Part shown: positions 33,537-49,262 of the stretch, in pieces
Layout: each line of letters starts with the position of its first letter
Position numbering within the stretch: the stretch's first letter is position 1
NCBI RefSeq assembly: GCF_007858435.1
Contig: NZ_VIGW01000003.1
Location: forward strand, 496,001-560,000
Direction of reading: 5' to 3'
Length of the DNA stretch: 64,000 bases
Origin: Tsukamurella asaccharolytica
Lineage (GTDB): Bacteria; Actinomycetota; Actinomycetes; Mycobacteriales; Mycobacteriaceae
Position numbers and translations under genes: made by a program
Notes under the pieces: model-generated
The model's database searches: none
The model's input: the letters and a program-made list of their open reading frames with translations, nothing else
Told to the model about the DNA's origin: nothing

Positions 33537-33776
33537 TCAGCCCATGAGCTGTGCGCCGGCCGTCGCGCCGAGGTTCCAGCACGCCTCCAAGTCGGCCTTC
33601 GAGGGCTTGCCGGACACCACGACGTGCGGTGTCACCTTCCGCCATCCCAGTCCCGCAGTGATCGAATCGACTGCGCGCACAGCGCCCTCGCCGCCCTCGT
33701 TCGCGTGCAGGTACAGCCCGAACGGCCGGTCGCGGGTGGAGTCCAGACACGGGTAGTAGATCGTGTCGAAGGCGTG
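33537..33776 (-). pseudogene. Host flavodoxin, C-terminal fragment left of attL
   Basis: Reading the minus strand from 33776 to the stop at 33537 gives about 79 flavodoxin residues (FDTIYYPCLDSTRD, LGWRKVTPHVVVSGKPSKAD, LEACWNLGATAGAQLMG) with no start codon. In 58 aligned residues, 47 equal the intact flavodoxin at 48.5 kb. The homology stops precisely at the GTG core 33774-33776, beyond which the integrase region begins. It is the missing 3' part of the truncated host gene at 49,047-49,262. Confidence 0.9.
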
Positions 33777-33800
33777 TTATTTCGGCGTAAACTCCCCTAC
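33750..33800 (+). repeat. attL of the element
   Basis: Host-derived sequence (flavodoxin codons) runs up to the core GTG at 33774-33776. From there the element arm TTATTTCGGCGTAAACTCCCCTAC continues to 33800, written here only as position and key parts: AAACTCCCC mirrors AAATACCCC of the right arm. The shared core is only 3 bp, as expected for a serine integrase. Confidence 0.8.
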
Positions 33801-33801
33801 T

Positions 33802-35232
33802 ATGAGCACTCCAGCCTCCGCCCCTGGTCGGGCGGTCATCTACGCCCGCGTCTCGTCGGATCGCGCCGGTGGGCGCTCCGTCGAGGAGCAGGTCTCCGAG
33901 TGCCGGACCGAGTGCGAGCGGCACGCCTGGCCGGTCGCTGACGTGCTCGTGGACAACGACGTATCCGCCAGTCGGTACGCCACCAAGGACCGGCCCGAGT
34001 ACGCCCGGCTCCAGGCGCTGCTCCAGCCCGGCGACGTGCTCGTGATGTGGGAGGCGAGCCGCGCGCAACGCGACCTCAAGCGTTACGTGGAACTGCGCGA
34101 TCTGTGCGCCCGTCGCGGAGTCCGGTGGTCGTACTCGGGACGCCTCTACGACCTCAGCGACGGCGACGATCGGTTCTCCACCGGTCTGGACGCCCTGCTG
34201 GCCGAGAAAGAGGCCGAGCAGACCCGTACCCGCATCCTGCGTGCGCACCGTGCCAACCTGGCCGACGGCAAGCCGCACGGCCGCGTGCCGTACGGGTACC
34301 GCATCGTCCGCGACCCCGAGACCGGCAAGCCCGTGCGCCGCGAACCGCACCCCGGCCAGGCCCCGCTCATCGCGGAGGCGGCCCGGCGCGTACTGGCGGG
34401 CGAGTCGTTCGCATCGGTCGTCCGATGGATCGCGAAGCAGGACGACTCGTTGCGCTGGGACGCGGCCAAGCTGCGCCGTCTGCTCATCAACCCCACGCTG
34501 GCGGGGTTCCGCGTGCACACGGAGGTCAAGGACGGCGTGCGGGGGCCTCGCATGATCCACGGCCGGGGCACCTGGGAGCCGATTCTCACCGAGGACCAGC
34601 ACAACGACCTGGTGGCGCTGTTCGCCGCCCGGCAAAGCGGCCCGCGCGGGGTGCCTGTCAAGTACCTGGTGTCCGGCATCGCTGAGTGCGGGGTCTGCGG
34701 CGAGAAGGTGTGGCGGGGCCGAGGCGGCACCAAGAAGGACGGCAGCCGCTATGAGGTCTACACGTGCAGGCCCGGCCGTCACGCCGCCCGGCGTCTGGAC
34801 CTGGTGGACGAGGCTGTGCACGAGGTGGTCGAGGAGATTCTGACCTCCCCCGCCGCCCTGGCCGCGCTGGCCGAGACGCCCGAGGCCGACACCACCGCCC
34901 CCGCTCGGCTGGCCGAGCTACGCGAGCGGCTCGACGCGGTGGAAACCGAGATCATCGAGGGCCGGATGCCCGCGTCCACTGGAGCGCGCGCGGCCACCCG
35001 GCTGGAGGCGTTGATCGCGGAGGCCGAGGCGGCGGCAGCTCCGGTGTTCACGGACCCGGCCGTGCGCAGCCTCGCCACCGCCGCCGACCCGGTTGCCGAG
35101 TGGCGCGGTATGCCGCTGGCGGACCAGCGCGAGTTCATCAAGGCGACCCTGCACATCCGCATCGAGCGGATCGGGCGCGGCCGGTGGCACGACAAGCGCG
35201 CGGGGATCACCGTCGAGCCCCGGCGTCGGTGA
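33802..35232 (+). CDS. int: Large serine integrase
   Basis: A 476-residue site-specific recombinase. The N-terminal resolvase domain begins AVIYARVSSDRAGGRSVEEQ, with the nucleophilic serine at about 18, and contains the ASRAQRDL catalytic arginines. The recombinase domain runs from about 155 (GRVPYGYRI) to 245. A zinc ribbon has Cys296, Cys299, Cys322 and His327, with a coiled-coil region around 375-420. The ATG at 33802 lies just inside attL; the earlier ATG at 33763 is rejected because it would take its first codons from host DNA. No clear Shine-Dalgarno sequence precedes it. It is predicted to catalyse integration into the flavodoxin attB. Confidence 0.95.
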   Translation: MSTPASAPGRAVIYARVSSDRAGGRSVEEQVSECRTECERHAWPVADVLVDNDVSASRYATKDRPEYARLQALLQPGDVLVMWEASRAQRDLKRYVELRDLCARRGVRWSYSGRLYDLSDGDDRFSTGLDALLAEKEAEQTRTRILRAHRANLADGKPHGRVPYGYRIVRDPETGKPVRREPHPGQAPLIAEAARRVLAGESFASVVRWIAKQDDSLRWDAAKLRRLLINPTLAGFRVHTEVKDGVRGPRMIHGRGTWEPILTEDQHNDLVALFAARQSGPRGVPVKYLVSGIAECGVCGEKVWRGRGGTKKDGSRYEVYTCRPGRHAARRLDLVDEAVHEVVEEILTSPAALAALAETPEADTTAPARLAELRERLDAVETEIIEGRMPASTGARAATRLEALIAEAEAAAAPVFTDPAVRSLATAADPVAEWRGMPLADQREFIKATLHIRIERIGRGRWHDKRAGITVEPRRR

Positions 35233-35268
35233 GCGCGGCGGCCAGCTCGGCCGTACAGCGCCGAACGG

Positions 35269-35295
35269 CCCCCTCTCCCGGTACGAGTGAGGGGG
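35269..35295 (+). terminator. Hairpin after the integrase gene
   Basis: CCCCCTC at 35269-35275 pairs with GAGGGGG at 35289-35295 around a 13-nt loop, 36 bp beyond the integrase stop. It lies in the 195-bp convergent gap between the integrase and the minus-strand ATPase, and could end either transcript. Confidence 0.5.
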
Positions 35296-35427
35296 ACGTG
35301 GTGTTCGCAGCGCAGCGGGCCGCTCAGGGCGCGAGGTGGGCGGCGTCGGTGCGTATCGCCCCCCGGCCAGCGAGTCAGCCAGGTCTCGGACAGGTGAACC
35401 TCCTTGTGTTGGTGTGTGATTGGCGAA

Positions 35428-48474: not shown

Positions 48475-48535
48475 AGTCAGCCCTTCGACGTAGGCGTCGA
48501 AGCGCCTCTGTTCGTGTTGTCATTCCGTCCTACCC

Positions 48536-49009
48536 CTACATGAGCTGAGCGGCGACCGTCGCGCCGAGGTTCCAGCACGCCTCCAGGTCGGCCTTCGACG
48601 GCTTGCCAGACACGACCACGTTGGGCGTGACCTTCTCCCAGCCGAGGCCGCCGGTGATCGAATCGGCCGCCCGCTCGGCCCCCTCGGTGCCCTCGTTGCC
48701 GTGGACGTAGAAGCCCCACGGCCGCCCCCGCGTGGAGTCGAGGCACGGGTAGTAGATGTTGTCGAGCCCGTGCTTGAGCGCGCCGCTGAGGTACCCGAGG
48801 TTCGCCGGGGTGCCGAGCACGTAGCCGTCGGCCTCCAGCACGTCGGCGGGCGACAGCGTGAGCGCAGCACGCCGCACGACTTCCACGCCCTCGATGTCAG
48901 GATCGGTCGCCCCCGCCACCACGGCCTCGAACATCTCCTGGCAGTGGGGCGAAGGCGTGTGGTGCACGATCAGGAGACGGTGCGGGGCGGCGGAATCAGG
49001 CGCTGACAT
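48536..49009 (-). CDS. Complete flavodoxin carried by the element
   Basis: A 157-residue flavodoxin/FMN-reductase-like protein. The phosphate loop is VHHTPSPHCQEMFEA, followed by GYVLGTPANLGYLSGALKHGLD and the C-terminal GKPSKADLEACWNLG. It matches the split host copy at 58 of 71 residues in the N-terminal part and 47 of 58 in the C-terminal part. The ATG lies 38 bp inside attR with AGGGGG upstream, the G-run coming from the attP right arm. The host promoter would therefore drive it. Function is probably the same as that of the broken host gene (Rv2771c position). Confidence 0.9.
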   Translation of the reverse strand: MSAPDSAAPHRLLIVHHTPSPHCQEMFEAVVAGATDPDIEGVEVVRRAALTLSPADVLEADGYVLGTPANLGYLSGALKHGLDNIYYPCLDSTRGRPWGFYVHGNEGTEGAERAADSITGGLGWEKVTPNVVVSGKPSKADLEACWNLGATVAAQLM

Positions 49010-49020
49010 CGGCAGACCCC

Positions 49021-49060
49021 CTATTACAGGGGTATTTGACATTGAAGTGCTTGAGCGCAC
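49021..49060 (-). repeat. attR of the element
   Basis: The core GTG is at 49047-49049. Left of it the element arm contains ACAGGGGTATTTGACATTGAA, described here by its key parts AGGGG and TTT, which mirror AAACTCCCC in attL. Right of it runs uninterrupted host flavodoxin sequence. Putting the two element arms together gives an attP whose centre falls next to the core. Confidence 0.8.
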
Positions 49061-49261
49061 CGGAGATGTAGCCGAGGTTCGCGGGCGAGCCGAGCACGTA
49101 GCCGTCGGCGGCCAGCACATCCGAGGCGGTGACCGCCAATGCTGCGCGGCGCACCACCTCCACGCCCTCGATGTCCGGATCGGTGGCTCCCGCGATCACC
49201 GCCTCGAACATCTCCTGGCAATGCGGAGACGGCGTGTGGTGGATCACGAGGAGCACGGCCA

Positions 49262-49262
<1 letters not shown>
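49047..49262 (-). pseudogene. Host flavodoxin, N-terminal fragment at attR
   Basis: ATG 49262 opens [21 protein letters not shown] and continues to SGALKH, where host sequence ends at the core. The frame runs on into the element for 17 codons and stops at 48996, 14 bp inside the element's own flavodoxin. The fragment's translation could therefore help ribosomes start on that gene. The start codon overlaps the stop of the preceding membrane-protein gene (TGATG), so the locus sits in the dapB operon. Confidence 0.9.

Follow-up and report, generated by a model that had tools for sequence, protein, structure and literature searches.

Islands and prophages that integrate into the ends of genes and rebuild the end that they interrupt are well known, with tRNA targets, icd (phage 21 and e14) and prfC (SXT) as examples, and the prophage-like elements in comK and sigK restore the gene that they split by excising from it. 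Phage satellites—such as the phage-inducible chromosomal islands and the P4-like elements—are a further group of mobile elements to be considered here. In the serine-integrase elements of streptococci, integrative and conjugative elements (ICEs) and integrative mobilizable elements (IMEs), insertion disrupts the target gene (PMC4701971, PMC5357655). In this report, we focused on a 64,000-nucleotide stretch of Tsukamurella asaccharolytica DNA (the window), which lies on a contig of a 4.1-Mb genome. In it, dapB, a small gene, and a flavodoxin gene stand in one row, and the flavodoxin gene is interrupted by a serine-integrase element (positions 33777–49047, core copies ~15.27 kb apart) whose two ends carry a large serine integrase and a full flavodoxin gene, respectively. 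We consider it probable that this element splits the host flavodoxin gene and supplies a full homologue predicted to run from the host dapB operon via translational coupling, and that the copy displaces the original when the element decays. As in the islands that rebuild gene ends, element sequence would keep the target function after insertion, but here the break is internal, the junction makes no fusion, and the whole gene that is supplied separately can apparently outlive the element. As for the comK and sigK elements, precise excision would restore the split gene, but those elements rely on excision whereas this one brings a substitute. The streptococcal ICEs and IMEs likewise have a large serine integrase and a very short shared core and insert within conserved protein genes, but a carried substitute is not mentioned in the passages of these papers that concern the insertions (PMC4701971, PMC5357655).

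The first finding is that the host gene, located behind dapB, is broken at invariant Lys-His codons and that what lies beside the break is a distinct homologue. When the halves are rejoined at the shared CA(C), they give a 150-amino-acid frame whose protein shares 96% identity with the uninterrupted gene in two other Tsukamurella genomes (G008 and G015) and 95% with that in a third (G002). Across the junction region, 111 of 120 nucleotides (nt) match G008 and G002, so that the empty site agrees with the rejoined fragments. The copy starts 38 bp inside the promoter-proximal junction, and 119 of its 146 aligned residues (82%) are identical to the rejoined host protein, which rules out a duplication made on insertion. 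A first-pass annotation had claimed both the two complementary halves that join in frame and the full flavodoxin, in the same orientation, that is a homologue and no product of the insertion, and on each count it was right. The structure model of the copy (mean predicted local distance difference test score, 94.5) has a flavodoxin fold closest to flavodoxin 2ark (TM score, 0.84) and WrbA, and Pfam FMN_red matches the copy below the cut-off. The break lies in a highly conserved protein stretch, in the helix after the third long strand of the structure model, so that each half would lack much of the flavodoxin fold, and the separate host halves are presumably inactive. The dapB frame overlaps the following host gene by 4 nt. 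All 16 Tsukamurella genomes searched have the flavodoxin gene: three (G000, G004, and G012) show the three-match pattern of the element, and the other 13 hold one full uninterrupted match each (E 1e-20), one of which (G009) is accompanied at a laxer threshold by a short extra host-gene fragment, a relic. The uninterrupted locus that the first-pass annotation expected in related genomes is thus there, and two full tandem flavodoxins in an uninterrupted relative, which that annotation held to be fatal to its reading, were sought in these 16 genomes and not found.

The second finding is that such elements occur in other genera. A search of 151 relatives, the 401 genomes of a family sample, and a named collection turned up integrases of at least 61% identity in eight genomes, namely the three Tsukamurella genomes above, Mycobacterium sp. 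141 (G151), G021, G222, G270, and G393, the five integrases from outside Tsukamurella being 61–68% identical. The flavodoxin gene is split at the same Lys-His codons in all eight, and a complete copy, promoter-proximal and in the same orientation, is present in seven, which bears out the expectation of further elements with integrase and flavodoxin. In G270, the host gene and its counterpart in the genus mate G294 are 96% identical, while the element copy is 97% identical to copies in other genera (G393 and G274), which argues that the copy travels with the element. For G000, G004, G012, and G270, the sequences closest to the copy come from other elements or relics rather than from the host gene of the same genome. 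A tree of 146 columns resolves little; the element copies do not form one clade in it, which suggests that copies were exchanged or acquired more than once, and the labels element, relic, and split host together need 10 changes on it, a number as low being reached by 6 of 200 shuffles. The ratio of nonsynonymous to synonymous change (pN/pS) is 0.00–0.37 in 12 of 13 pairs of copies, relic copies included, the 13th pair (G258–G299) having been dropped because it is out of codon register; to judge by these ratios, the copies are evolving under protein-level constraint. More distant integrases (42–45% identical), for which 39–40 kb was read, gave no frame within 1.5 kb upstream of the integrase with a second match further along (E 1e-4) in 8 of 8 cases, a check that would miss a copy beyond the stretch read and for which G181, G212, and G383 had too little sequence. 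The flavodoxin matched none of 50,697 phage records, and IMG/VR gave no close relative; among plasmids, 25 records hold relatives. In a Tsukamurella tyrosinosolvens record filed as a plasmid (NZ_LR134457.1), a flavodoxin at 11679–12116 is 83% identical; this record may be a chromosomal piece.

How the copy might be expressed is suggested by the attR junctions, 17 of which were read with their N-terminal fragment (eight intact elements and nine relics). In the islands that rebuild their target, the frame is restored by fusion; here, a separate gene follows the host stop instead. The host frame stops 42–66 nt behind the His codon in these junctions—51 nt in the window, where the stop begins 11 nt beyond the A of the copy's ATG—and this stop overlaps a start of the next gene in 16 of 17, 12 times as ATGA or GTGA and four times with the start 11–13 nt before the stop; the exception is G309, where the next start lies 4 nt behind the host stop. 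We predict that the truncated host frame is translationally coupled to the next element gene. The operon layout and these overlaps support the predicted expression of the copy from the host promoter, and the copy likely spares the cost of insertion. The first gene behind attR is the flavodoxin in 11 of the 17 junctions (truncated in G021). In the other six it is a cargo gene, with a start that overlaps the host stop in five; examples are a DUF4238 gene in G151 and a gene in G270 and G435 for a 175-amino-acid protein (90% identical, with a sub-threshold PD-(D/E)XK match), the others being unassigned. At L062 (4079–5146) and L084 (4591–5118), these cargo genes lie between attR and the copy, their starts overlapping the host stop. 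A role of the cargo in defense was rejected, 0 of 8 proteins having matched PADLOC. Junctions of this kind would fit a slot that mainly serves to express cargo from the host operon, in which the flavodoxin is one cargo among others, kept because it restores the last gene of the operon. We think this unlikely: the first cargo varies, whereas a full flavodoxin is found in seven of the eight intact elements and in 17 relics, even if the relics were partly recognised by it.

The attachment sites bear on a second alternative. As expected of a large serine integrase, the enzyme combines an N-terminal Resolvase domain with a Recombinase domain, and the insertions lie at one attB with a very short shared core, at the same codon in 8 of 8 cases. 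The core was first thought to be CAC, which holds in Tsukamurella but not as a common core: the sequence common to both sites across elements is CA (at attR, G021, G222, G270, and G393 read CAT, as opposed to CAC at attL), so that the third base in Tsukamurella is partly chance. All eight used sites have the half-site CGC[CG]TTCGA in common; among the seven full copies, the three from Tsukamurella alone are without it, which rules out a general self-protecting change in the att site of the copy. Regenerated tRNA targets offer a parallel for a copy that serves the element itself by keeping an intact target for further insertions, the sparing of the host being a by-product. An attB-like stretch is indeed kept in the copies: of 52 positions, 4 differ from the used host site in G393 and 10–18 do so in the other six elements that carry a complete copy. 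However, the loci read contain no tandem element arrays, the Tsukamurella copies have lost the half-site of the used sites, and the constraint on the copies acts at the protein level; target keeping is, in our view, a rather improbable purpose of the copy.

The third finding concerns the fate of the locus. The integrase would insert a circular form in which attP lies between the integrase gene and the flavodoxin copy, and integration at the Lys-His codons would bring the copy next to the host promoter, which likely spares the host from losing the gene. The element may later excise, restoring the host gene, or decay; in the latter case, the copy would be kept while the split original rots, and the host would be left with a foreign allele, i.e., xenologous gene displacement. 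The window copy as query has a match in 359 of the 401 family genomes, and at least 17 genomes of this sample (G009, G073, G074, G077, G182, G206, G258, G274, G299, G309, G352, G364, G368, G389, G415, G435, and G456) hold, besides the intact elements, host-gene fragments next to one uninterrupted full copy. Second matches located elsewhere in the genome (G010, G453, G461, and G404) were left out of this count. Integrase or M50-like remnants are present in 7 of the 15 relics examined (all but G182 and G206). Two allele classes, ~50% identical to each other, can be told apart. Identities of the N-terminal fragments to the second class (L111) are 82% in G274, 76% in G077, and 75% in G074, as against 62, 46, and 56% to the window copy, and the C-terminal fragments of G074 and G274 are 60–69% identical to L111; the intact copies of these three genomes are 52–58% identical to L111 and 74–80% identical to the window copy. 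Fragments of the second class beside an intact copy of the element class point to gene displacement, so that G074, G077, and G274 are, by these identities, cases of xenologous displacement, and G182 and G206, with their short fragments, are weaker ones. The second class is carried by several, not all, sampled genus mates of the displacement genomes, and both classes occur in 11 of the 31 genera of the sampled family (E <= 1e-55). The genes of G003 and G009 are chimeric: they resemble the host type over about the first 60 and 110 nt, respectively, and the element type thereafter. G009 has kept a host C-terminal fragment, and a DUF4238-like frame (23% identical, E 1e-6) lies between. It is likely that such elements have swapped the host gene for a foreign version many times, an outcome that the first-pass annotation was in no position to see.

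That the relics arose instead by ordinary tandem duplication or by horizontal replacement without an element, followed by decay, would be in keeping with the several relics that have no integrase or M50 remnant (G077, G309, G352, G364, G389, G456, and others). Against this, the fragment ends at the integrase's codon in eight of nine relic attR junctions (that of G368 runs on for three codons), an overlap of its stop with the next start is seen in eight of nine, and integrase remnants abut the host C-terminal fragment in four relics (G073, G074, G274, and G368); such an origin is improbable. It is hardly credible that the host already had tandem flavodoxins, of which the integrase split one while the other merely lay beside attR: a full and a split copy do stand side by side, but the 13 element-free Tsukamurella genomes hold a single full gene each, which rules out tandem duplication as the origin, the copy is internal to all eight elements (truncated in G021), and the four copies named above are nearest to those of other elements or relics.

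Several observations weigh against displacement by a coupled copy, which we nonetheless favor. Regarding coupling, several junctions offer more than one start codon, some are near-identical and hence not independent, the overlaps come without a formal chance test, and the six junctions with cargo first have something other than flavodoxin to couple. Regarding the relics, the genomes were picked from the match counts of two queries plus follow-ups, which is why their number is a minimum; 10 of the 17 have no integrase or M50 remnant or fall outside the 15 examined; the integrase piece adjoining the host fragment in G073 is a weak one of 28 residues; of the nine relic junctions, two fit a strict attP pattern and the rest are similar by eye only; and the short fragments of G182 and G206 are closer to the second class (58% and 63%), with that of G182 at 48% to L111 in another alignment. 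G003 might have been a donor of the copy rather than a recipient. As for the need for a substitute, 42 of the 401 family genomes have no match to the window copy (of the 20 listed, 17 belong to genus g3), the copy of G021 is cut after ~22 residues with no other full copy in that genome, and in G305 the gene is broken at this codon too, next to a serine recombinase of only 26% identity and with no copy found. In G021 and G305 at least, the gene would therefore be dispensable and the insertion tolerable; the latter case also indicates that two integrase lineages may have converged on one codon.

The remaining genes of the element (Table 1) may point to a phage satellite. Similarities to satellites are the size of 12–15 kb, an integrase, a replication-like gene, a terminase, and a capsid-related gene, with no full virion set found among the proteins scanned; the differences are the capsid-pentamer homologue and the carried copy of a host gene, and that no helper is known. 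The pentamer homologue is 50–60% identical in the seven other intact elements, while the terminase large subunit has a match in only two of the eight (G000 and G151). Among the 16 element proteins scanned, which do not include all small frames, none matched a portal, hexamer capsid, or tail protein, and a Pfam scan of these 16 gave no relaxase or conjugation gene. It is possible that the element alters the capsids of a helper as satellites do. Outside the element, a DUF222/HNH gene (32195–33427), which we take to be of the 13E12 type, lies directly downstream of the split gene, as one does downstream of the flavodoxin in G003, G009, and G012. Within the host C-terminal fragment, at about nt 361–420 of the aligned host gene, 56 of 60 nt match the element copy, as against 47 and 49 of 60 for the G004 and G012 hosts; this suggests that gene conversion took place between the host fragment of the window and the element copy.

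Table 1. Features of the split flavodoxin locus and its element (positions in the window)
Feature	Position	Strand	Remarks
Host flavodoxin gene, C-terminal part	33537..33776	-	His-Ala-Phe-Asp to stop
attL with attP-derived half site	33735..33801	.	Between integrase start and host C-terminal fragment
Large serine integrase, 476 aa	33802..35232	+	Resolvase PF00239 (1.6e-21), Recombinase PF07508 (2.3e-06); PHROG 95
AAA/primase-like protein	35428..37389	-	Start uncertain
Excisionase-like small protein	37609..37890	-	Weak PHROG 66 match (2.2e-05)
Tentative small terminase subunit	38587..39225	+	Named by position only; PHROG 645 match labelled 'Rnase E'
Small serine resolvase/invertase	40172..40717	+	
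Terminase large subunit	40721..42208	+	
Protein without assigned function	43084..43764	+	Match in 8/8 intact elements, none in phage collection
Homologue of phage 'major capsid pentamer protein' (PHROG 779)	43825..44619	+	Match in 8/8 intact elements
M50B-like peptidase	44870..45547	+	Weak Pfam match just over cut-off; match in 8/8 intact elements
XRE-type regulator	46397..46615	+	
Complete element-borne flavodoxin/WrbA-like gene, 157 aa	48536..49009	-	ATG 49009, stop 48536
attR	49010..49075	-	Host half ending CTCAAGCA, then attP-derived sequence
Host flavodoxin/WrbA-like gene, N-terminal part	49048..49262	-	To Lys-His codons; ends at junction
Host gene preceding flavodoxin	49262..49741	-	No Pfam match; presumably resembles Rv2772c; stop overlaps flavodoxin start as TGATG
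Host dapB frame	49738..50811	-	DapB_N + DapB_C; listed GTG start probably too early

Gene-end rebuilding and gene-disrupting serine integrases are already known; the new part is a whole-gene substitute that would outlive the element. Among open-licence papers, which are weak evidence on this point, we found no earlier description of a carried whole gene that takes the operon position of the broken gene and persists, in several genera, as the only full copy of the host. Trees often imply that a core gene has been replaced in situ by a divergent orthologue, but how this came about can rarely be seen; here, the putative stages stand side by side: the empty site, the intact element, an element whose integrase is a relic, host-gene fragments next to an intact copy, and chimeric genes. 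There is perhaps an even chance that this widespread, phage-satellite-like family acts as a gene-swapping machine, which breaks a core redox gene at a single codon, gives the host a translationally coupled foreign version along with cargo in that operon slot, and finally, on decay, leaves only the foreign version. If so, it would explain why two ~50%-identical allele classes are found within 11 of the 31 genera of the sampled family. More generally, the locus suggests how an integrase that breaks a protein gene could stay nearly neutral for its host.

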